Translations under genes and position numbers: made by a program
Source of the DNA: Niabella agricola
GTDB lineage: Bacteria; Bacteroidota; Bacteroidia; Chitinophagales; Chitinophagaceae
DNA: 64,000 nucleotides
Reading direction: 5' to 3'
Assembly (NCBI RefSeq): GCF_021538615.1
Contig: NZ_JAJHIZ010000003.1
Coordinates: 4,887,811-4,951,810 of the forward strand
Notes under the pieces: model-generated
What the model saw: only the letters and a program-made list of their open reading frames with translations
Databases searched by the model: none
What the model was told of the DNA's origin: nothing
Shown: one piece after another, positions 36,905 to 46,390 of the stretch
How the letters are laid out: each line of letters begins with the position of its first letter
How positions within the stretch are numbered: the stretch's first letter is position 1

Positions 36905-37969
36905 TTACCGAGCGTAATACGCCGTCCGCAGGCGTACAAGGAGTGTATTCACCACCTGCGGATCCGGAGCATCGGGCAAACGACTCTCCTGATACAATGA
37001 TTTGAGCCGGTGTATGATCGTTTCAGCCTTAGCCACCAGTTCTTCATATGCATATATGCCTTCTTTAATTTGTAATAATAATAAACGATCGGTTCTTCTG
37101 ACATTGACCCGGTTGTCCGTAACGATTTCTTCGGCCATTTTCAGTAAGCGGAAAACATGCATCATGTTTTTGCTGTCGTAATTTTTTCCATGACGCATGG
37201 TGCCTTCAAAACGCGTTTCATTCCGTTGTGTTACCCAATCCCAATATTCCCTGTATTTTTTGCAATACACGGTATAGCCGTCTCTGTTAAAATAAAGAAG
37301 TCCCACCGGGACGGCATCCTTGCGGATATGGCTGGTACAAACGTCATTGGATCCTTCCTTCCGCAAAATCCCTGTGTATTCGTTCCGGGGCGAATGATAT
37401 AATTGATAACAATCCCTGAAATGCGGTAGCGCCGCCAGTCCCATGGATTCCTGTGAAAAAGACCGTTGCCGCAGGTACTCATCCAGGGGCATGCTGTTGC
37501 GGCCATCATAAACATGACAAAAATCTATCGGAGATTTCCGGTCCCTGCTCATTGGGTTCACAATTTTTTTCTCCAGGCCACAGGCTTTTTTGATCTGGCT
37601 CCAGGCATAGTTTGCAAACGTTTGCTCACAAAGCCGGGATAGAAAGTCGGCAGGTTTTATAAAGTCCATTAGGGGATCTCGCAATAAGATACAGTCATCG
37701 GGTGTGGCCAGCAGCTCCAGTATGTTGGGATTGTTACGGGACAGAAGTTCCATAAACCGTTTTAACTCATAATATACGATATCATTGTTTTCATTGGAAA
37801 CCTGCGGTACATATTCCATGGAATAATACCAGTCCCGCGGAAGTACAAACACGCCTTTGATGTCTGTATCCGAAGTCGGAGTGTCCAGTCCATAAGCCCT
37901 GCTGCCGGAAATACATTCAAATATCAGCCAGCCGCTGCTCTTTATCGTATCAATTGTCAGGTGAGTCAT
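36905..37969 (-). CDS. MNT-type nucleotidyltransferase (COG3541-like), distal gene
   Basis: A 354-residue cytosolic protein. The polymerase-beta-type motif is SGSRAYGLDTPTSDTDIKG (GS-x10-DxD, about residues 21-39), with a third acidic position likely in IVYYELKRF. The long C-terminal helical region (QIKKACGLEKKI onward) matches the COG3541 group. Such enzymes transfer a nucleotide to RNA, protein or small molecules; the acceptor is unknown. It overlaps the other nucleotidyltransferase gene by 20 bp, so the two are co-translated. The operon starts behind a motif shared with the WYL gene. Confidence 0.85.
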   Translation of the reverse strand: MTHLTIDTIKSSGWLIFECISGSRAYGLDTPTSDTDIKGVFVLPRDWYYSMEYVPQVSNENNDIVYYELKRFMELLSRNNPNILELLATPDDCILLRDPLMDFIKPADFLSRLCEQTFANYAWSQIKKACGLEKKIVNPMSRDRKSPIDFCHVYDGRNSMPLDEYLRQRSFSQESMGLAALPHFRDCYQLYHSPRNEYTGILRKEGSNDVCTSHIRKDAVPVGLLYFNRDGYTVYCKKYREYWDWVTQRNETRFEGTMRHGKNYDSKNMMHVFRLLKMAEEIVTDNRVNVRRTDRLLLLQIKEGIYAYEELVAKAETIIHRLKSLYQESRLPDAPDPQVVNTLLVRLRTAYYAR

Positions 37970-38711
37970 TGAGCTTTTTTATAAAATAGTGATTCAATGT
38001 GTCGATATTGTTAGGGTTGATCTTCAATGCGCCTTTGGAAGCCTCCAGCTGTTCAAACAGACCATCCAGCCAGTTAAAAAGGAGCGTTTCACCTTTATGA
38101 TCATAGCTTTCAGGCTTCGTAGCCTTTAACGCAATAAGTCGGAGGATGCACCTGCTCAGCCGGGGATTGGTGTACTTAAGTAGTTTTACCAGTTCCATGG
38201 GAGGTACTGCATCATCATGCAGGATCCAGTTACAGGAAAGCACGGAACGCAGCATATAGAAAAAACCTTTTAGCTTAAAGGGAACACCAGGTGGGCATTC
38301 TGCCCTGAATTTTTGCGCCAGCGAATAGTGATGAAAGAAAACAGCGACGGGAGAATAGTATTCCCGGATCAGTTGCCGGAACTCCCGTTTGAATTCCGGA
38401 GCCGTGTAGTAAACGATGGGCGACTGGAACCGTTCTATTAATGGTACATTCGATTTTTTGAGTAACAGTAACGATTTTCTCAGGTCCCAGCCGGTGATGT
38501 CCAGCTCTTCTTTCATCCAACTGATTGCATCCTTTTGGGCAGCCAGGGAAAGGTACCAGTTACGGTTGTGCCGGTATATAAAACGTATGTCATAATCACT
38601 GTCCGGAGACGGGAAGCCCCAGGCCCTGCTACCGGTTTCACAGGCATAAAGCAAGTTGATGCCCTTTTCAGCTTCCAGCTCTTTTAATGTTTTCAGTATG
38701 TTTTTGTGCAT
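37950..38711 (-). CDS. MNT-type nucleotidyltransferase (COG3541-like), first gene
   Basis: A 253-residue nucleotidyltransferase with TGSRAWGFPSPDSDYDIR (GS-x10-DxD, about residues 26-43) and the following FIYRHNRNWYLSL, a stretch also seen in its downstream partner (VLPRDWYYSM). The rest is helical (ELDITGWDLRKSLLLLKKSN). Two paralogous nucleotidyltransferases in tandem suggest a heteromer or division of labour on one substrate. It follows the slipin gene on the same strand but a strong terminator separates them, and it has its own promoter and operator. Confidence 0.87.
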   Translation of the reverse strand: MHKNILKTLKELEAEKGINLLYACETGSRAWGFPSPDSDYDIRFIYRHNRNWYLSLAAQKDAISWMKEELDITGWDLRKSLLLLKKSNVPLIERFQSPIVYYTAPEFKREFRQLIREYYSPVAVFFHHYSLAQKFRAECPPGVPFKLKGFFYMLRSVLSCNWILHDDAVPPMELVKLLKYTNPRLSRCILRLIALKATKPESYDHKGETLLFNWLDGLFEQLEASKGALKINPNNIDTLNHYFIKKLNDSPDN

Positions 38712-38728
38712 TGGTTGATGATTTAATT

Positions 38729-38765
38729 CAAAGATATGCGGGCACTGTGCAGTCTTTTTGCATGG
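38729..38765 (-). promoter_or_regulatory. Promoter and putative WYL operator of the nucleotidyltransferase operon
   Basis: On the minus strand TATCTTTG (38729-38736) is a perfect -7 box. It is preceded, after 7 bp, by a 22-bp near-palindrome (38744-38765; plus-strand halves ACTGTGCAG and TCTTTTTGCATGG). The motif covers the -33 region, where no TTG is present. It matches the motif at 40606-40627 in 20 of 22 positions. Regulation by the WYL protein is inferred. Confidence 0.65.
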
Positions 38766-38831
38766 CTCGAAAAGGGTTCAAAAAATATGCTGTAACCATT
38801 ACGGGGATAAATGTAACGTGAGACCTTGTAT

Positions 38832-38866
38832 AAAAAAGACCTGCAAGATTAGGGCCTTGCAGGTCT
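38832..38866 (-). terminator. Rho-independent terminator of the slipin gene
   Basis: An 11-bp perfect stem (AGACCTGCAAG / CTTGCAGGTCT) with an 8-nt loop, followed on the minus strand by six T. It lies 7 bp after the slipin stop codon and separates it from the nucleotidyltransferase operon. Confidence 0.88.
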
Positions 38867-38872
38867 GTGCAG

Positions 38873-39970
38873 TCATTTATCAGGAACAAAAAGTTGCTTT
38901 AACTGATCGATCAATACGCCGTTCCCGCTGACGCTGATATTGCTGATCTTTTCTGCGATCTTTTCCACGTATTCCATCTCTTTCAGCTTCCAAAGCATGG
39001 CATTTTCTTCCATCAGTTTGGCCGTGTTCAGCAGGCTCCGGGTGCTGGCCGTTTCTTCCCGCCGCGTAATGGTATTGGCCTGGGCTTTTTTTTCGGCAAC
39101 CAGCACCTGGTTCATGATCTCCCGGATATCGCCCGGCAGAATGATATCCCGGATCCCCAGTCCGGTAACCTCAACCCCAAGTGTTGCGGCAGCCGCTGCT
39201 ACCTGTTGCAATATACTGGTGGAAATGCTTTCCTTTTTTTCCAGGAGTTCATCAAAAGCAAAGCCGGCTACATATTCCCGCAGGCTCTGCTGAATGGCCA
39301 CGTACAACTGCCGGTCATAACCCGCATTGTCCAGTAATGCAATTGCTGCATTGGCAACCCGGTATTGCGCCCAGGCATTAACCCGGAGGTTCGCCTTATC
39401 CTTTGTGAGGATTTCCTGCCCGTTGATCTCGAGTTGCTGCTGCCGTACATCCGCTTTTGCCACATGTATTGTAATCGCATTCTTCCACCAGTAGTGCGTA
39501 CCCGAATCCAGTTCACCCTGTGCTTTGCCGTCTACAAAGAGCAAGGCCTTCTCATAACTTTCAACTTTATAGGTGCGCACATAGGGGGCCACCAGCTTAT
39601 GTTCGAGTAGGTCCCGGTGGATGTTTTCAGTGATGGCTATTTTGGTCATATCTCCCTTTATAAAATCATGCCGGATCGCGGATTTCCAGAAAGCGTACCG
39701 TCCGGCGGTAAGCACTTTTTGAAACAGGCCGTTCTGGAATTGCAGGGCTATTTCATGATCTGCTACTTCAATTACCTCTAGCGCATTTGCCAGTTCCGTG
39801 TCCTGCAATAGCAGGTTCAGTTCAACCGGGGGCTGAAATGGCTGGGTGATATCGTAGATAGTGACGTTTTGTTGCCACAACCAATAGGACCCCTCCCGAA
39901 GCATTTTCTGATAAGCGCCTCTTTTAAATACCAATGCCACCTGTTGTGCATTTACATTTACTTTTTTCAT
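38873..39970 (-). CDS. Slipin/SPFH-domain protein with triplicated N-terminal module, no membrane anchor
   Basis: A 365-residue SPFH (band 7) protein. Residues about 190-300 are the slipin core (ANLRVNAWAQYRVANAAIA; GVEVTGLGIRDIILPGDI) followed by a coiled-coil tail (QVLVAEKKAQANTITRREE). Before it a module of about 35 residues occurs three times: VALVFKRGAYQKMLREGSYW, IALQFQNGLFQKVLTAGRYA and ALLFVDGKAQGELDSGTHYW. There is no N-terminal membrane helix, so it is probably cytosolic and oligomeric. Slipins occur beside RNA-repair genes (rtcB loci) in many bacteria; here RtcB is missing. Confidence 0.88.
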   Translation of the reverse strand: MKKVNVNAQQVALVFKRGAYQKMLREGSYWLWQQNVTIYDITQPFQPPVELNLLLQDTELANALEVIEVADHEIALQFQNGLFQKVLTAGRYAFWKSAIRHDFIKGDMTKIAITENIHRDLLEHKLVAPYVRTYKVESYEKALLFVDGKAQGELDSGTHYWWKNAITIHVAKADVRQQQLEINGQEILTKDKANLRVNAWAQYRVANAAIALLDNAGYDRQLYVAIQQSLREYVAGFAFDELLEKKESISTSILQQVAAAAATLGVEVTGLGIRDIILPGDIREIMNQVLVAEKKAQANTITRREETASTRSLLNTAKLMEENAMLWKLKEMEYVEKIAEKISNISVSGNGVLIDQLKQLFVPDK

Positions 39971-39983
39971 GATCTTATGGTTT

Positions 39984-40259
39984 TTAATAGTTGTGTTTTA
40001 AAGTATCCTCCTTTATAAAAGGAATAAATGAAAAATGCCGGCCGGCTGCCACCTGTCTGCTACGGAGGCAGGTTTCAGCCCGGTTATGAAAACCGGTTTG
40101 GTTTTGAAGTGCTGCAGCTGGTGCAGTATTCCCTTGCAAAGCGGTATCCGTTGCCGGCCATTTACATCTGCCCGCAAGTGCTTCGGGGTTGCTGTCCGGT
40201 AACAAGGCCAGGGCATTGAACTGGAACAGCCGGTACCGGCCGTCATTTTTCGGGTGCAT
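39984..40259 (-). CDS. Unassigned short ORF between tRNA-like cluster and slipin gene
   Basis: A 91-codon frame that starts at the end of the last tRNA-like element and stops 13 bp before the slipin ATG, as an operon gene would. It begins MHPKNDGRYRLFQFNALALL and has no recognised domain. A second minus-strand frame covers 40013-40246 and looks protein-like too in its last part (KTKPVFITGLKPAS), so the gene may be frameshifted, or the region may be RNA. Not recognised; coding status unsure. Confidence 0.3.
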   Translation of the reverse strand: MHPKNDGRYRLFQFNALALLPDSNPEALAGRCKWPATDTALQGNTAPAAALQNQTGFHNRAETCLRSRQVAAGRHFSFIPFIKEDTLKHNY

Positions 40260-40260
40260 C

Positions 40261-40331
40261 TTTTTATAGAAGGAATGCGCTTCTTTAGGCTACATTAACG
40301 GTGTAGTGTTCTGCCATTGAACGGTCACGTA
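40261..40331 (-). ncRNA. tRNA-like element with Asn(GTT)-type anticodon arm, no acceptor stem
   Basis: On the minus strand: D-arm GTTC-AATGGCA-GAAC (40308-40322), one base, anticodon arm CTACA-CCGTTAA-TGTAG (40290-40306), five variable bases, and a T-like arm AGAAG-CGCATTC-CTTCT (40268-40284). Arm sizes and spacing are those of a tRNA. The 7-bp acceptor stem is absent and the T loop is not TTCRANY. Hence tRNA-derived but not a normal tRNA. Confidence 0.55.
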
Positions 40332-40392
40332 CGATGCGTGGCGGGATTCGAACCCGCAATTGTCTGTTGCTCTTCCACTGAGCTATTCCGTT
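40331..40392 (-). ncRNA. tRNA-like element lacking an anticodon arm
   Basis: The minus strand shows AACGGAA, TA, a perfect D-arm GCTC-AGTGGAA-GAGC (40369-40383), only 11 bases where the anticodon arm should be, and a perfect T-arm GCGGG-TTCGAAT-CCCGC (40341-40357). Its 5' strand AACGGAA (minus) pairs with the TTCCGTT that ends the preceding element, not with its own 3' end. Confidence 0.6.
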
Positions 40393-40396
40393 TCAC

Positions 40397-40480
40397 AACG
40401 GAAGAGGGATTCGAACCCCCGACGCACAGGTTGTGGTGCTATGCCGTGTTCCTAATAAGAGCATACAGTACGTTACAACG
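40397..40480 (-). ncRNA. tRNA-like element with intact T-arm and degenerate 5' half
   Basis: The T-arm GGGGG-TTCGAAT-CCCTC (40404-40420, minus strand) is followed by the acceptor-like TTCCGTT (40397-40403). Upstream, ATGC...GCAT and GCAC...GTGC could form D and anticodon arms of unusual loop size. TTCCGTT pairs perfectly (7 bp, 4-nt loop) with the start of the next element. The 5' boundary is approximate. Confidence 0.5.
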
Positions 40481-40604
40481 CCTGCACTGCGGTGCCTGAA
40501 ATACACCCGCCTGGCTTTTAAGAAACGGTCAACAGCGCGTTTTACCTTACGGCAATATGTTTGATCAAAGAACTTGTTTCATTTATAATACAAAGCTGAA
40601 ATAC

Positions 40605-40629
40605 AACTGTGCAATCTTTTTGCATAGTT
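40605..40629. promoter_or_regulatory. Near-perfect inverted repeat, putative WYL operator, divergent
   Basis: AACTGTGCAA (40605-40614), spacer TCTTT, TTGCATAGTT (40620-40629): 10-bp arms with one mismatch, 34 bp before the WYL gene. Read toward the tRNA-like cluster and slipin, 7 bp separate it from CAGCTTTG (40591-40598), a one-mismatch -7 box; the same 7-bp offset occurs at the nucleotidyltransferase promoter. Confidence 0.65.
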
Positions 40630-40663
40630 GAGAAAATAATTTATTTTTCCTCAAATTTTTCCT

Positions 40664-41686
40664 ATGCCTGTTAATCGCAATGCGCTGATCCGCTACCGCA
40701 CCATTGATAGATGCCTGCAAAACCGCCGCCGCAAATGGACCATTGAGGATTTGATCGACGCCTGTAACGATGCGCTTTACGAGTATGAGGACATCGAGAA
40801 AGGTGTAAGCCTGCGTACCATACGGATGGACCTGAATGCCATGCGCAGTGATAAGCTTGGGTACAACGCTCCGATCATCGTAACTGATAGGAAATATTAT
40901 ACCTATGAAGATCCGGCGTACAGTATTTCGAAGATTCCGTTGTCACATCAGGACCTGGACGTGCTACAGGATGTATCTTTTCTCCTGCAACAGTTCAAGG
41001 GATTTAGCCATTTTAACGACCTGGATGAGTTGTTGCAGCGTTTGGAGGATAAGATTTACACAGAACGGGGACAGGAATCGCCGGTAATCGACTTTGAAAA
41101 AAACGATCTACTGGCTGGTATTCACTGGCTGGATCCGCTGCACAAGGCGATTATCAAAAAACGGTCCCTGCAGGTAACCTACCAAAGCTTTTCTGCACGC
41201 CAGCCGGCAGACATGGTGGTATATCCGTACCTGCTAAAGGAGTTCCGTAACCGATGGTTTCTTTTGTGCATGCACCGGAAAGGCAAAGTGTTGCTAACAC
41301 TTGCACTGGACCGCATAGCTGCGATAAAAGAATTGCCCGGTGAAGCCTACCTGGTGCATAAGGGTTTTAATGCGGCTACCTATTTCAGTGATATTATCGG
41401 TGTAACAAAAAATGTGGCCGACCAGCCCACGCGCATTACTTTTATGGCCAATGCAAAACATGCACCCTATATCCGAACCAAGCCCATTCATGCATCACAA
41501 CAAATTGTTTCCACCGCAAACGGCTGGACTACGTTTACCATTGAAGTGATCCCGAATTTTGAATTGGAACGGGAGTTGCTCGGTTTCGGCGAAGGATTGC
41601 GTGTGACGGCACCAGCTTCGGTGGTACGTATCTTCAAACAACGTATCCGGAAAATGCAGGAGTTCTATACAATTGGTCAGGACTGA
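40664..41686 (+). CDS. WYL-domain transcriptional regulator
   Basis: A 340-residue regulator. The N-terminal helical DNA-binding part (about 1-75) contains IRYRTIDRCLQNRRRKWTIE and VSLRTIRMDLNAM, a winged helix-turn-helix. The WYL domain (about 155-235) has QVTYQSFSARQPADMVVYPY, LKEFRNRWFLLCM and TLALDRI; the C-terminal WCX part ends with LGFGEGLRVTAP. WYL domains are thought to bind nucleic acids or nucleotides as ligands. It is the only plus-strand gene in the locus, and its operator-like repeat is shared with the nucleotidyltransferase operon. Confidence 0.9.
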   Translation: MPVNRNALIRYRTIDRCLQNRRRKWTIEDLIDACNDALYEYEDIEKGVSLRTIRMDLNAMRSDKLGYNAPIIVTDRKYYTYEDPAYSISKIPLSHQDLDVLQDVSFLLQQFKGFSHFNDLDELLQRLEDKIYTERGQESPVIDFEKNDLLAGIHWLDPLHKAIIKKRSLQVTYQSFSARQPADMVVYPYLLKEFRNRWFLLCMHRKGKVLLTLALDRIAAIKELPGEAYLVHKGFNAATYFSDIIGVTKNVADQPTRITFMANAKHAPYIRTKPIHASQQIVSTANGWTTFTIEVIPNFELERELLGFGEGLRVTAPASVVRIFKQRIRKMQEFYTIGQD

Positions 41687-41787
41687 AGCAAACATGATAT
41701 CGAAGGTGATGATGATGCCGGCTTTTAATTTGCAGTGTAATATCCTGCGGAGGTATTGTTGCTTTGCCACAGCAGCTCAGATAAGGC

Positions 41788-42866
41788 TCAGACCGTATTT
41801 TCCATCGCTGCCAGCTGAAAACCGATTGAAGCCGGTTTTGTCCGTTTGCCGGCTACCGGTTCAGCATTGCAGATCTCTGCCAGGGTGCAAGGCTCGGTAA
41901 TGTTTTGTGCATATCCCAGATGGTTTGCCAGGATCCTTGCTTTCTCCACGCCTAATTTTCCAAATTCATATTTGGCGATCAGCCGGCCTTCCCGTAACAA
42001 TGCCTCATCAATAGGTGTCAGTGCACTGTTAAACGTACAAATCAGTTGAATATTTAGAAAATCGGCCAGTGGTCCATCGGATATATTTAGCAGGTTCGAT
42101 ACGGATGAGTCGGCACTATAACGGCGGTCCATAATGATGTTTTCCGCATCCTCAATAATCAGCACCGTGTCCGGGTTGTTGATCAGCAGCTGGATAAAAT
42201 CAGGACTGGTTAAATTGCCGGCAATGGAAGGAGAGAGGAAGAGTACCCGCTTCCGTATCTTTCCCACCAGGTAGCGGAGGTAAGAAGTTTTGCCGGTACC
42301 GGGTAATCCGTGCAACAATACGATACCCTTATCCTTTTTCCGGTTCAGGCGTTGCCGGATACGGGCATCCACCGCCTTGAAATCTGCTTCATAAAAAAGA
42401 TCCAGGTTGAGTTTGTTCCTTTTTATCTCCATGGATCGCAGCAGCAGCCGGCTCCCGTCACGTACGATCAGGTTGATCTCCAACGGCTCCTTTTTCTTCT
42501 TCTCCTGGAATGGCTGCAGCAGGGCTACAATGCCTTCCGTTAACGAAGCCTGATCACCATCGTGCAGGATCTCGCACCAGCATTCATCCAGTTCTACAAT
42601 ACATCCGTTTTCTAAAAGAAAGATTGCCGTTTCGTACTGGAATTTTTTTTGTTTCCGCTTGAACCACTGATGCTGGAAAATATGCCGGGTATGCGCCGCC
42701 AGCAATTGCTTTAAAGGTCCGAATGCTTTACTGCCATCCAGCTGGCCAATAAAGAGCGTGCTGGGTAGTTTTCCAAACTCATGAGGTATAATACTTTTGC
42801 ATTGATGAAGGAATTACTGAATAGTTCATTCGTATTGATGACTCTTTGTATAGATTCTTGTTCCAT
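41788..42866 (-). CDS. AAA ATPase with apparent N-terminal frameshift
   Basis: From 42705 leftward the frame encodes an AAA ATPase: Walker A GLPGTGKTSYL, Walker B VLIIEDAENI, sensor-like QLICTFNSAL and the arginine-containing LLREGRLIAKYEFGKL. Protein-like sequence (EFGKLPSTLFIGQLDGSKAF) continues upstream to about 42798 without a start codon. The ATG at 42866 opens the other frame (MEQESIQRVINTNELFSNSF). Adding one base at the A4 tract 42795-42798 joins them into about 359 residues. The N-terminal domain (to about residue 160) has no name I can give. Either a sequencing slip or a real frameshift. Confidence 0.8.
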
Positions 42867-42880
42867 TTTTTTTAAGTTAA

Positions 42881-42914
42881 ACTTTATGACCTCACAGAAC
42901 GGAGGTCATAAAGT
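42881..42914. promoter_or_regulatory. Perfect 13-bp inverted repeat between YkuK and AAA genes
   Basis: ACTTTATGACCTC (42881-42893), spacer of 8 bp, GAGGTCATAAAGT (42902-42914). It lies 14 bp upstream of the AAA start codon and 29 bp after the YkuK stop. No T-run follows on the minus strand, so it is not a standard terminator; an operator or RNA processing hairpin is possible. Confidence 0.65.
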
Positions 42915-42943
42915 ATTTGGTTTGGGTGTTTTTGGCAACGGCC

Positions 42944-43426
42944 TTATTGTACGATTTTATTGGCACAGCTGGAGCTTGCAAATGCAAAAGGTTTTGCCCT
43001 GCAGATCCAGCCCATGCCGGAAACATAGCCCATGGCTTCGCTGAGCGCGGCATTACTTTTATACGCGGCATCCGTGTTAATATCCACATGCAACTCAGGC
43101 GCAATGCTGTGTTTGTTAAAAACAGCACTCAGTTGCAATGTTAGCTGCACGGTTTTGTCCACTTCCATTAACATCCGTTCCCGGATGCTCATTTTCCTGT
43201 GCAGCAATTCTTTTCGCAGAAACAGAAAGGCTCCCTTTCCTTTTCGTACAAAAACGATCACGGTCGCAAACTCGATAACGGCGCCTTTTACCTGGCTGTC
43301 CGTACCCAGGCATACCTGTATAGTATGTCCGGCTTTCCGTTCCGCTATCAATGTCTTGTTTACTTCTTCGGCCACCGGTTCGCTCAGGGATGTTCCTCCA
43401 AACCGCCGCCATTGCTGTTGTTCCAT
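42944..43426 (-). CDS. YkuK-family RNase H-like protein
   Basis: A 160-residue protein of the RNase H-like YkuK (DUF458) family. The first strand carries the acidic residue in CLGTDSQVKGAVIEFATVIV; VDINTDAAYKSNAALSEA supplies further acidic positions and GWICRAKPFAFASSSCANKI the conserved end. The fold is that of RNase H-type nucleases, but activity in this family is not established to my knowledge. It precedes the AAA ATPase on the same strand and follows the tRNA-like array, so all three may be one transcript. Confidence 0.85.
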   Translation of the reverse strand: MEQQQWRRFGGTSLSEPVAEEVNKTLIAERKAGHTIQVCLGTDSQVKGAVIEFATVIVFVRKGKGAFLFLRKELLHRKMSIRERMLMEVDKTVQLTLQLSAVFNKHSIAPELHVDINTDAAYKSNAALSEAMGYVSGMGWICRAKPFAFASSSCANKIVQ

Positions 43427-43532
43427 TGGTTTTAATTTTGATCTTCAATCAGTTCGTTTTTTATTTCATCTAACCATTGTGCTACGCTTTTCTTTCCAGA
43501 GAAAATGAGTTCTTTTGACTTTTTATTTTTAG

Positions 43533-43603
43533 CATGGGCTACAGGAATTGAACCTGTACCGGTGATTTTGGAGATCATCATAATACCATTATACCAAACC
43601 CAT
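43533..43603 (-). ncRNA. tRNA-like element, Trp(CCA)-type
   Basis: Minus strand: acceptor ATGGGTT / AGCCCAT (7 bp, one G-U), anticodon loop CTCCAAA exactly as in tRNA-Trp on a weak 4-bp stem (TGAT/ATCA), variable bases CCGGT, perfect T-arm ACAGG-TTCAATT-CCTGT, discriminator G, no CCA. The D-arm keeps AATGGTA but pairs poorly. It is the last unit of a six-element array, before the YkuK gene. Confidence 0.65.
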
Positions 43604-43610
43604 ATGTTTG

Positions 43611-43675
43611 CGGTGCTCAAACCTTTTTCGTACCGTCTTCAGCGGGAATGCATAGATCTGCGCTGCCGAAGCACC
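43611..43675 (-). ncRNA. Degenerate tRNA-like element, Phe(GAA)-type anticodon
   Basis: Acceptor-like arms GGTGCTT / GAGCACC (7 bp with one G-U) enclose 50 bases with a short hairpin CCG-CTGAAGA-CGG whose loop resembles that of tRNA-Phe. D and T arms are not canonical. It fills the gap between the Trp-like and Ala-like elements with spacers of 6-7 bases, which supports it as an array member. Confidence 0.4.
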
Positions 43676-43681
43676 TTTTGA

Positions 43682-43752
43682 CGGCATGACCGGATTGGAA
43701 CCGGCAACCTGTTGCATACAGGGCAATGGCAAAAGCCGTTGCGCCACATACT
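43682..43752 (-). ncRNA. tRNA-like element, Ala(TGC)-type
   Basis: The T-arm GCCGG-TTCCAAT-CCGGT pairs fully (one G-U). The anticodon arm CCTG-TATGCAA-CAGG resembles tRNA-Ala(TGC) but has A instead of the invariant T33. The D-arm is GGC/GCC around a GG-containing loop. The acceptor is weak (GTATG / CATGC, five pairs). Confidence 0.55.
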
Positions 43753-43761
43753 ATTGACTTG

Positions 43762-43834
43762 CTGGTTTAACAGGATTCGAACCCGCATCTCCTCATTCGT
43801 AGTGAGGTGTTCTGTTCCATTGAACTATAAACCA
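43762..43834 (-). tRNA. Near-canonical tRNA with Arg(ACG) anticodon
   Basis: Minus strand, 73 nt: acceptor TGGTTTA / TAAACCA (7 perfect pairs), TA, D-arm GTTC-AATGGAACA-GAAC, anticodon arm CCTCA-CTACGAA-TGAGG (anticodon ACG), four variable bases, T-arm GCGGG-TTCGAAT-CCTGT, discriminator G. All standard lengths are kept. U1-A72 and no encoded CCA beyond the acceptor. It could be charged, unlike its neighbours, but lies within the degenerate array. Confidence 0.75.
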
Positions 43835-43845
43835 GTATCTGAAAT

Positions 43846-43935
43846 CATACGGCTTTCAGATTTGAACTGAAAACGATCATCCGCTATTTGCCTTCGAAAG
43901 AGGAATGATCATGTTACCCTTACACCAGGCCGTAT
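43846..43935 (-). ncRNA. tRNA-like element with extended anticodon arm, Glu(TTC)-like
   Basis: Acceptor ATACGGC / GCCGTAT pairs perfectly, the T-arm TTCAG-TTCAAAT-CTGAA is canonical, and the D-arm GTGT-AAGGGTA-ACAT is close to Glu/Gln types. The anticodon hairpin CCT-CTTTCGA-AGG is embedded in an additional stem GATCA/TGATC, making the element 90 nt. It abuts the His-like unit with no spacer. Confidence 0.6.
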
Positions 43936-44020
43936 TGGTTGACCCCGGGTCCGATTGTTATCGGGAGAACCCTGTTCTCCACAGTCACTATGTGGTGTTT
44001 TACCTGTTAAACCAGGGCCA
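43936..44020 (-). ncRNA. tRNA-like element, His(GTG)-type, with encoded CCA and T-loop insertion
   Basis: Acceptor TGGCCCT / GGGGTCA (two G-U) followed by A and CCA, D-arm GTTT-AACAGGTA-AAAC, anticodon arm CCACA-TAGTGAC-TGTGG (GTG). The T-arm is abnormal: GGGT/ACCC encloses a second hairpin CCGAT-AACA-ATCGG. First unit of the array on the minus strand. Confidence 0.6.
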
Positions 44021-44025
44021 ACATA

Positions 44026-44056
44026 AACACCCCGCTGCATCTTGCGGGTGTGTTTT
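44026..44056. other. GC-rich hairpin before the tRNA-like array
   Basis: AACACCCCGC and GCGGGTGTGTT pair with a bulge around a TGCATCTT loop. On the plus strand it is followed by TTTT, but no plus-strand gene precedes it; on the minus strand it separates the small membrane peptide gene from the array, possibly as a processing site. Confidence 0.45.
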
Positions 44057-44078
44057 CTCCTTTGCTGCAACTAATACG

Positions 44079-44213
44079 TTATCGCAATCTTACAGAGGCC
44101 GGATCGTCGATCTTTGGGGATGCGGCTTCCGTTGTGTTGTTGGTTGTTGTTCTGCTGCCGGCAATTTTTTCTACAATGAATACCAGCAGTATGATGATAA
44201 AAATGATGTTCAT
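44079..44213 (-). CDS. 44-residue single-pass membrane peptide with perfect Shine-Dalgarno site
   Basis: ATG at 44213 is preceded by AAGGAGGTGA (44217-44226, minus strand) at ideal distance, far stronger than other starts in this window. The peptide begins MNIIFIIILLVFIVEKIAGS (one membrane helix) and ends with a polar tail rich in Thr, Asn and charges (TTTNNTTEAASPKIDDPAS), stop at 44079-44081. No family is recognised. It lies between a terminator-like hairpin and the tRNA-like array. Small toxin, phage-type or membrane-signalling peptide are all possible. Confidence 0.6.
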   Translation of the reverse strand: MNIIFIIILLVFIVEKIAGSRTTTNNTTEAASPKIDDPASVRLR

Positions 44214-44237
44214 GGTTCACCTCCTTCGTGTAATAAA

Positions 44238-44263
44238 AAACCCGGCCTTCCAGGACCGGGTTT
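44238..44263 (-). terminator. Rho-independent terminator
   Basis: AAACCCGG / CCGGGTTT stem with a CCTTCCAGGA apex that can pair further; six T follow on the minus strand. It lies 12 bp before the Shine-Dalgarno site of the membrane peptide. Confidence 0.75.
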
Positions 44264-44283
44264 GCTACGTCATCATGTTTTCT

Positions 44284-44421
44284 TTATACATGAAGCCCTG
44301 TAAAAAACTCCGGTTTCCTTTTTCCCGATTTGCGAATACGCAGATGCATAGCTCCGCCATTAGACCGGTTGGAGGCTGGTATCATCATTGTAAATCGAGG
44401 AAATGGGGTTGTTCGATTCAT
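44284..44421 (-). CDS. Possible 45-residue basic peptide
   Basis: A frame from ATG 44421 to a TAA at 44284-44286, bounded by terminators on both sides. The sequence starts MNRTTPFPRFTMMIPASN and ends with a basic segment (HLRIRKSGKRKPEFF). No Shine-Dalgarno site or known family. The transcription-unit-like packaging is the main support; it may equally be a non-coding segment. Confidence 0.3.
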   Translation of the reverse strand: MNRTTPFPRFTMMIPASNRSNGGAMHLRIRKSGKRKPEFFTGLHV

Positions 44422-44435
44422 TATTTCATATAAAT

Positions 44436-44460
44436 AAAAACCCCGCAATTTCTTGCGGGG
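44436..44460 (-). terminator. Rho-independent terminator
   Basis: Perfect 8-bp stem CCCCGCAA / TTGCGGGG with a GAAA tetraloop (minus strand), then TTTTTATTT. Confidence 0.85.
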
Positions 44461-44486
44461 CCTGGATTTTATTAAAAAATTATTTT

Positions 44487-44579
44487 TTAACTTTCTACAG
44501 CAAATGCCCCGCAACGCGTATTCAGTCCTATCGGGCTGAACCACGCTTTTGTTTCAATATGTAGATTCTTACGTTGCAT
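44487..44579 (-). CDS. Possible 30-residue peptide or structured small RNA
   Basis: ATG 44579 to TAA 44487-44489, starting MQRKNLHIETKAWFSPIG. A good promoter lies 25 bp upstream and a strong terminator 27 bp downstream, so a transcript is likely. The same stretch can fold: GCAACG (44511-44516) pairs with CGTTGC (44572-44577), and 44521-44540 forms an 8-bp hairpin with a four-base loop. Peptide and RNA readings cannot be separated here. Confidence 0.4.
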   Translation of the reverse strand: MQRKNLHIETKAWFSPIGLNTRCGAFAVES

Positions 44580-44603
44580 TTTATATTTTTTTATTTGCGT
44601 ATG

Positions 44604-44633
44604 CAAAGGTGTATATCCTTTTTAATATAGCAA
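44604..44633 (-). promoter_or_regulatory. Promoter of the short-ORF / tRNA-like transcription unit
   Basis: TTG (44631-44633, within TTTTG), 19-bp spacer and CACCTTTG (44604-44611, one mismatch to TAnnTTTG) on the minus strand. The start site should lie about 18 nt before the ATG at 44579. The flanking 44545-44672 is AT-rich and holds nothing else. Confidence 0.55.
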
Positions 44634-44672
44634 AATTTTTGAACTATTTTTTTTAAAAAATACACGAGCGGA

Positions 44673-45781: not shown

Positions 45782-46390
45782 TTAGTGAATCCGGTCTCCA
45801 CGCAGTTCCATTTCCTGCATGATCACTGCTTCATGGGCCAGCCATTGGGCCCAGCGCTTCCGCACCTTTTCTTTCGGAAGATAGGTTTCGGCCAACTCGA
45901 TAAAGAGGGTGTAATGACCGGCTTCGCTTTCCATAAAGCGCCGGTAAAACTTGCTCATATAGGCATCGTTCAATCCTTCGCTGAGCCGCTTGAACCGTTC
46001 ACAACTCCGGGCTTCGATCATGGCCATGGTCAGCAATTTGTCGAGAAAAAACTCATCCGGACTTGCGCCCTTTGCCTGGAATTGTAATAATGCATTTACA
46101 TATGCATCCTTTCGCTGGCGCCCTAATTTCAATCCTCTTTTTTCAAGTTCCTGCAATACCAGGCGGAAATGGCCCCATTCTTCGGTAACGATAGGGGCGA
46201 GCGCCTTTACCAGTTGCTCTTTATCGCTGTAGCGCTGAATGAGTGAGATACAGCTGGTAGCTGCTTTCTGCTCACAATAGGCATGATCGGTCAGAATCGC
46301 TTCCAATGAGATTTCCGCAAGGTTCACCCAGCGCGGATCCGTGGGCAGTTGTAAGCCTAAAATGTTTTTTGTGTCCTGTGAAAGTTCCAT
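45782..46390 (-). CDS. miaE: tRNA-(ms2io6A37) hydroxylase MiaE
   Basis: A 202-residue ferritin-like di-iron protein. Metal ligands lie in LAEISLEAILTDHAYCEQKA, VTEEWGHFRLVL, IEARSCERFKRL and MESEAGHYTLF (E and ExxH patterns). MiaE hydroxylates the isopentenyl group of the hypermodified adenosine 37 of tRNAs reading UNN codons. It is a tRNA-modifying enzyme close to, but not obviously part of, the tRNA-like locus; the GNAT and YcxB genes lie between. Confidence 0.9.
   Translation of the reverse strand: MELSQDTKNILGLQLPTDPRWVNLAEISLEAILTDHAYCEQKAATSCISLIQRYSDKEQLVKALAPIVTEEWGHFRLVLQELEKRGLKLGRQRKDAYVNALLQFQAKGASPDEFFLDKLLTMAMIEARSCERFKRLSEGLNDAYMSKFYRRFMESEAGHYTLFIELAETYLPKEKVRKRWAQWLAHEAVIMQEMELRGDRIH

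Follow-up and report, generated by a model that had tools for sequence, protein, structure and literature searches.

A candidate WYL-controlled tRNA-damage response island of Bacteroidota with a composite RNA of two permuted tRNA folds

Introduction

The systems that come closest to the locus presented here are described in four earlier reports. The rtcBA operon of the Salmonella rsr-yrlBA-rtcBA locus responds to damaged tRNAs (PMC7790460). In Anabaena, rtcB, a slipin gene, an AAA ATPase gene and an operon of 26 tRNAs are derepressed in a trcR mutant, which places one repressor over all of them under translation stress (PMC10272220). Phage tRNAs with altered anticodon loops have been proposed to evade anticodon nucleases (PMC10264068), and in jumbo phages RlaP is predicted to restore nucleotides before ligation and TROVE to act together with a tRNA-like partner (PMC7824862). 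Here we describe a chromosomal locus of Niabella agricola (Bacteroidota) within a stretch of 64,000 nucleotides, hereafter the window (RefSeq assembly GCF_021538615.1, contig NZ_JAJHIZ010000003.1, positions 4,887,811 to 4,951,810, forward strand), in which two RlaP-family nucleotidyltransferases, a slipin and a WYL regulator stand beside a composite RNA with two permuted tRNA folds and a cluster of tRNA units. We read it as a WYL-controlled tRNA-damage response (RNA-repair) island of Bacteroidota, with a probability of roughly 0.58.

As in Salmonella, RtcB repair would be tied to a tRNA-like noncoding RNA and to damaged tRNAs; the Salmonella operon uses Ro60 and RtcR, whereas the Niabella locus has a slipin, a WYL regulator, a pair of RlaP proteins, tandem permuted mimics and arrays, and no TROVE protein was found in its genome (PMC7790460). 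Like YrlA (RF02553), the RNA contains a permuted module of T-arm, acceptor hairpin and D-arm; unlike YrlA, it has two such modules, the second with a full anticodon arm, and a probable pseudoknot. The Anabaena TrcR regulon is alike in that a single repressor, relieved by stress, governs rtcB, a slipin, an AAA ATPase and a tRNA operon; TrcR is an RHH repressor, its genes are dispersed in a cyanobacterium, and the available text mentions no mimic RNA (PMC10272220). As in the Anabaena trn array, supernumerary tRNAs are clustered in one direction, both in relatives and in the window. The phage tRNAs likewise form clusters with anticodon loops unlike those of the host, whereas the arrays described here are chromosomal and linked to repair genes, and their nuclease resistance would be a predicted property (PMC10264068). 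Jumbo-phage sets of RlaP, RtcB and TROVE are similar in RlaP end repair, in pairing TROVE with a tRNA-like partner and in tRNAs serving as replacements; they differ in being viral, and the available part of that report mentions no slipin-linked composite RNA (PMC7824862).

Our literature search found no description of this combination of genes, RNA and array, although single parts may have been mentioned earlier. The locus brings together a slipin whose RNA-repair context is defined, a conserved structured RNA that contains two permuted tRNA folds, and chromosomal tRNAs whose anticodon loops are altered systematically. If our reading is right, the survival of bacteria under attack by tRNA-cutting toxins and defence systems would become open to experiment, tRNA-mimic RNAs would no longer be confined to Ro60, and the phage tRNAs thought to escape anticodon nucleases would gain a chromosomal counterpart.

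Gene content and conservation of the locus

The protein-coding part of the locus consists of the following genes:

36905 to 37969, minus strand: RlaP2, a second RlaP-family nucleotidyltransferase, 354 amino acids (PF10127, 81 bits; Pfam cut-off 23)
37950 to 38711, minus strand: RlaP1, an RlaP-family nucleotidyltransferase, 253 amino acids (PF10127, 219 bits; Pfam cut-off 23)
38873 to 39970, minus strand: system-type slipin, 365 amino acids (Band_7), set apart from ordinary slipins by its E-value
40664 to 41686, plus strand: WYL-WCX transcription regulator, 340 amino acids (PF13280 and PF25583)
41788 to 42705, minus strand: AAA ATPase, 305 amino acids from a TTG start (PF00004)
42944 to 43426, minus strand: YkuK-type RNase H-like protein, 160 amino acids (PF04308)
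43441 to 43557, minus strand: remnant of the 3' part of c8, a gene intact in sister loci (tblastn 57.5% over 40 amino acids, E 1e-9)

A preliminary description, made from the sequence alone, had named two nucleotidyltransferases, a slipin, a WYL protein, an AAA ATPase and a YkuK protein on nearly one strand. All six assignments hold by Pfam family, and WYL alone lies on the plus strand, with RlaP2, RlaP1, slipin, AAA and YkuK on the minus strand. PADLOC reports WYL and weak AAA matches in the locus and nothing else, and a search of PDB sequences with RlaP1 gave no relative at E 0.01.

RlaP is present in 20 and the system slipin in 22 of 119 related genomes. Across the phylum, 20 of 395 sampled genomes carry a system slipin (E below 1e-150), and 97 further genomes have ordinary slipins only (E 1e-20 to 1e-29); the search for viral slipin copies gave one distant match, of 34% identity. 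Neighbours were counted in fetched DNA, up to 9 kb on each side of slipin, at 80 named loci, which are the best of 575 confirmed ones and not independent, being relatives; L109 and G014/L045, of equal length, are taken as one contig, and one record, labelled Rickettsiales, is perhaps mis-binned. RtcB was found in 50 of these loci, WYL in 32, YkuK in 22, RlaP1 and RlaP2 in 15 each, AAA in 14, c8 in 6 and TROVE in 2. A further cluster of genes, found in 6 loci and with an RF-1 domain in its representative, is PrfH-like. All 32 WYL genes lie upstream of slipin and antisense to it. RtcB, TROVE and the PrfH-like gene among these neighbours, together with the two RlaP proteins, support the link to RNA repair drawn in the preliminary description.

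That description had also proposed looking for the same genes and tRNA-like sequences together in relatives, and they do co-occur. A match to tRNA-like RNA lies directly upstream of slipin in 21 of the 22 slipin genomes, the exception (G034) being without a T-arm, and in 79 of the 80 named loci the 1 kb ahead of slipin holds T-arm hairpins in the same orientation. Of the 190 T-arms that lie outside tRNAs called by ARAGORN, 151 are located in this upstream kilobase. Upstream of ordinary slipins, no T-arm hairpins were found in eight control loci, taken from eight of the 97 ordinary-slipin genomes.

A composite RNA upstream of the slipin gene

The window holds two clusters of tRNA-like DNA, both on the minus strand: cluster A at 40.26-40.49 kb and cluster B at 43.5-44.0 kb. 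A T-arm descriptor finds 4 sites in the 64 kb, all within these two clusters, against a mean of 0.48 and a maximum of 2 in 50 block shuffles. The clusters noted earlier are real and exceed chance. Cluster A, far from being a series of separate tRNAs, is one composite RNA with two permuted tRNA mimics. From 5' to 3' it consists of a conserved hairpin, module 1, module 2 and an H-type pseudoknot:

40256 to 40490, minus strand: composite structured RNA element, with covariation in 26 loci (match of covariance model R1 at 40260-40435, 153.9 bits)
40460 to 40488, minus strand: 5' hairpin P1 (91.9% of cells paired, 26 loci)
40364 to 40429, minus strand: module 1, a permuted tRNA fold whose ends lie within the anticodon loop (helices 2-5 of the alignment; colinear pairing fails)
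40290 to 40357, minus strand: module 2, again a permuted tRNA fold, here with the anticodon arm complete (loop CCGUUAA; helices 6-9)
40256 to 40284, minus strand: H-type pseudoknot (helix 10 with 91.5% and helix 11 with 72% of cells paired)

The fold is supported by covariation. With the structure preset on 26 loci, 93.3% of cells are paired and both partners vary in 44 of 56 pairs, against 24.9 in shuffles; the covariation score is 0.473, compared with 0.178 in shuffled alignments, none of 500 reaching it, and with no more than 0.120 when the structure is slid along the alignment. RNAalifold without a preset structure returns 53 pairs of the same nested topology, 41 of them with changes on both sides. 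A colinear acceptor pairing, as in ordinary tandem tRNAs, was rejected for cluster A, reaching at best 49.3% paired over 12 shifts versus 92.0% for the permuted hairpin. A larger alignment of 83 loci (A4), fitted to the model and made up of sources already selected because they match it strongly, has 928 cells changing on both sides against 249.6 in shuffles. The pseudoknot is probable, less well supported than the mimics, and relies on the alignment; its second stem in the window (GCAU/AUGC) is shifted there by one column. A free descriptor search for pseudoknots proved too permissive, with hits in 80 of 93 regions against 29.4 in shuffles and at mixed positions.

Applied to 55 non-seed loci, the scan with a covariance model, also proposed earlier, places a match upstream of slipin with 50 bits or more in 53 and with 80 bits or more in 42; the seed of this model, R1, includes the window, and the test loci are relatives of the seed. 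Of the weak cases, L188 scores 24 bits and L144 has no match. Because R1 also matches ordinary tandem tRNAs, a mark of 80 bits was set and weaker matches were counted only when touching slipin: at E 0.001 all 119 genomes have a match, one of them a tandem tRNA-Met of G011 with 81.8 bits. Seventeen genomes reach at least 80 bits, and slipin lies directly downstream in 16 of them.

Module 2 presents a variable triplet within a housekeeping-like loop. An anticodon arm with at least 4 of 5 pairs and a 7-nucleotide loop is present in 71 of the 83 loci, and the triplet takes 27 forms, with an entropy of 1.77-1.85 bits per position versus 0.46-1.20 at the flanks. Loops were compared with a housekeeping tRNA set from five genomes, every one a carrier of the system, which took 35 of the 39 tRNA matches of G301 and 34 of the 70 of G386 (the remaining G386 matches include its array). 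Among the 66 module 2 loops whose triplet occurs in this set, 36 are equal to a housekeeping loop (2000 flank shuffles: mean 21.5, maximum 31), and 61 have a housekeeping-like residue 37 (mean 33.4, maximum 45).

These loops bear on whether the RNA is simply a cis-acting leader that regulates slipin alone, for example by tRNA-competitive folding or processing, with no role in trans. Such a leader would account for the constant position of the RNA, which precedes slipin in the same orientation in 79 of 80 loci and lies behind a palindromic site in the WYL-slipin gap. A module 2 loop that behaves as a whole tRNA loop with a variable triplet goes beyond what a plain leader needs, however, and related YrlA-type RNAs act as separate RNAs; we regard the purely cis-acting leader as somewhat unlikely.

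Alternatively, the composite RNA could belong to the Ro60 (Rsr) system as its bacterial Y RNA, slipin being a mere neighbour. The Rfam YrlA model does match the module 1 region with 34.7 bits (a second match has 26.5), and TROVE replaces or accompanies slipin in some relatives. In slipin loci the match, however, covers only model positions 23-88 of 114 and stays below the gathering score of 69, and TROVE (PF05731) is absent from the genome of the window and from 116 of the 119 genomes, slipin being present in 22, which makes this alternative improbable.

TROVE genes occur in three of the 119 genomes (G022, G041 and G070). Those of G041 and G070 adjoin WYL, RlaP, RtcB and several YrlA-like repeats, and G070 and G022 have slipin as well as TROVE. 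Six YrlA matches in two TROVE loci span the whole model, at 26-49 bits, all below the gathering score.

A palindrome shared with a distant rtcB gene

Two operator-like palindromes lie in the locus, each an exact (0-mismatch) match of an 18-mer pattern:

38744 to 38763, minus strand: operator-like palindrome upstream of RlaP1
40606 to 40625, minus strand: operator-like palindrome between WYL and the RNA element

In the 6.26-Mb genome, TGCAAAAAGAYTGCACAG has exact matches only at these two places, upstream of the composite RNA and of RlaP1. Only four sites match with 2 mismatches, one of which stands about 65-75 nucleotides before rtcB, with a perfect TGCAA-N5-TTGCA; at up to 3 mismatches there are 21 matches in the genome, compared with 7 for the reversed pattern. 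By a rough estimate, the chance that one of four sites falls within 100 nucleotides upstream of rtcB is 6 in 100,000. RtcB is absent from the six-gene locus of the window and is encoded at about C3:1468107 in the same genome, 3.46 Mb away. In three loci where RtcB adjoins (L047, L049 and L316), a similar site with 2-3 mismatches precedes rtcB, and 11 of 18 other WYL gaps, among those listed, hold a TGCGCA-, TACGCA- or GTGCAA-type palindrome with similar spacing.

The sharing of the palindrome suggests that the RtcB ligase is probably in the same regulon as the locus, with WYL as the putative protein that binds the sites. The preliminary description had supposed a variant without the classical ligase; its repair link and the co-occurrence with tRNA-like DNA stand, and that part of its interpretation falls, given the palindrome before the distant rtcB and RtcB within 50 of 80 related loci.

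tRNA arrays in relatives and in the window

Searched over the 5.5 kb upstream, 52 of the 78 loci that offer 2.5 kb or more of DNA there carry sense tRNA arrays; 286 tRNAs are in sense orientation and 1 is antisense. Ala, Gly, Val, Thr and Met together account for only 10 of the 282 array tRNAs with an assigned isotype. In the window, ARAGORN makes 3 calls in the tRNA-like clusters and Rfam 2 at gathering score, and comparison with sister arrays identifies six array units in cluster B:

43532 to 43603, minus strand: tRNA-Trp(CCA) (ARAGORN, Rfam and sister arrays; above the Rfam gathering score)
43612 to 43675, minus strand: Phe-like remnant (weak 27-nucleotide match to array tRNA-Phe, E 0.005; far end by eye)
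43680 to 43751, minus strand: Ile(UAU)-like remnant (87% over 47 nucleotides to the tRNA-Ile of L044; weak Rfam tRNA match, 22.4 bits)
43761 to 43834, minus strand: tRNA-Arg(ACG) (ARAGORN, Rfam and sister arrays; above the Rfam gathering score)
43848 to 43934, minus strand: Arg(UCU)-type unit, called by ARAGORN as Glu of 90 nucleotides (83.9-86% to units of L101 and L041)
43945 to 44022, minus strand: tRNA-His broken in the T-arm region (98% over 56 nucleotides to an array tRNA-His of N. drilacis; 3' end by eye)

With the two mimics, the tRNA-derived units of the window number eight, so that the nine tRNA-like elements first reported were not reproduced. The Trp unit has the anticodon loop of its housekeeping counterpart, and that of Arg(ACG) is altered (CUACGAA versus CUACGGA in the housekeeping copy of the same genome).

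Altered loops are common in the arrays of relatives. Among 270 of the 282 parsed array tRNAs, 87 have an anticodon loop identical to one in a housekeeping tRNA with that anticodon; in the housekeeping set itself, leaving out one genome at a time, the figure is 151 of 159 loops. Residue 37 is G in all 25 housekeeping genome-isotype cases of Arg(ACG), Gln, His, Leu(UAG) and Pro, and is A in 75 of the 86 array units of these kinds; conversely, U or G replaces the housekeeping A in array Asp (20 of 22), Glu (9 of 13) and Phe (20 of 24). Over these eight anticodons, chosen after the data had been seen, residue 37 is as in housekeeping tRNAs in just 20 of 145 array units. Array tRNA-Leu, for example in L143 and L177, measure 74-78 nucleotides in all 22 cases, against 81-87 for housekeeping Leu, so that the long variable arm is missing. 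Discriminator bases, read from the 3' end by a simple rule, are mostly kept (His C in 21 of 21, Cys U in 9 of 9, Lys A in 25 of 25, Asp G in 20 of 22) and are less uniform in Arg (A in 20 of 28), Gln (A in 12 of 18) and Phe (A in 18 of 24).

The array tRNAs might be decoys that soak up anticodon nucleases instead of resistant replacements. The loops of Lys, Tyr, Cys, Met and Ser(UGA), which mostly equal the housekeeping ones, and the degenerate units in the window would suit decoys. A decoy would, however, be expected to avoid the change at residue 37 seen in the eight post hoc anticodons, and discriminator bases are mostly kept. Judged from sequence, the loops and discriminator bases speak more for tRNAs that can be charged and have altered anticodon loops than for bait, and we consider decoys unlikely.

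The tRNA-like DNA might also be debris, left by insertions at tRNA sites or by phage tRNA clusters and without relation to the genes. In favour of this, units in the window are degenerate and phage tRNAs match array tRNAs in 826 records, but a housekeeping tRNA stretch matches more phage records (1414), and debris would hardly show the fixed place and strand, the covariation and the recurrence with slipin; we think it very unlikely. A recent phage origin of the arrays was likewise rejected, the phage matches being no more similar than those of the housekeeping stretch.

Proposed function

In the damage-response island that we propose, the divergent WYL protein probably controls three transcription units through the TGCAA-N5-TTGCA operator: the leader RNA with slipin, RlaP1-RlaP2, and the RtcB ligase encoded elsewhere in this genome. 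Induction would follow tRNA damage. After cleavage in the anticodon loop, the missing end nucleotides of a tRNA would be put back by RlaP and its halves rejoined by RtcB, while the sense tRNA array would supply charged replacements with anticodon loops unlike those of the targets. The leader RNA, with its two permuted mimics and probable pseudoknot, may serve as sensor or bait, as module 2 displays a housekeeping-like anticodon arm and the anticodon loop of module 1 is open, resembling that of a tRNA after cleavage. Slipin could be the scaffold that joins repair (RtcB and RlaP), replacement (the array) and sensing or bait (the composite RNA).

A tentative elaboration, possible but not one we would favour, is a two-part defence against anticodon nucleases. 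The leader, whose housekeeping-like anticodon arm displays a triplet that differs between species on a permuted scaffold open in the anticodon loop, would be cleaved as bait and sensor and thereby lead to repair; array tRNAs with loops changed at residue 37 or 38 would be charged and survive, slipin would be the membrane anchor, and WYL would couple the whole to RtcB and RlaP.

Several observations weigh against a functional island of this kind. The RNA element is missing in G034 and L144 and nearly missing in L188, and helix 11, the second stem of the pseudoknot, is its weakest helix at 72% paired. No ARAGORN array lies within 5.5 kb in 26 of the 78 loci, the array loops of the five isotypes named above are mostly unchanged, and L041 is without a palindrome before RlaP1. 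In the window itself the array is largely decayed, two units being whole tRNAs by Rfam and four degenerate or odd. The c8 gene is only a remnant, and the AAA frame has 305 amino acids against 359 in sister loci. The degenerate array units, the c8 remnant and the shortened AAA frame suggest that the local copy may be decaying. As judged by eye, the upstream part of the AAA region (41788-42867, minus strand) runs on in another frame, which may reflect decay of the gene or an error in the sequence.

Variation among related loci

In L047 and L049 (G012 and G003, of the same genus, 83% and 72% complete), the genes of the slipin locus are split into several frames, from decay or assembly error. Three same-genus genomes without slipin (G005, G010 and G011; loci L101, L102 and L103) keep YkuK at the same chromosomal place, two of them with array tRNAs and one with a WYL fragment, a pattern that suggests stepwise loss of the island. 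In a few Flavobacteriia loci (L162, L155 and others), slipin has as neighbours a 106-amino-acid protein, TPR proteins and an RNase T-type exonuclease, together with an ATPase that is presumably MoxR-like. The island of the window is flanked by a gene for a MiaE-like tRNA hydroxylase (PF06175, 147 bits; 45782-46390, minus strand), which is kept beside the island in genomes of the same genus.

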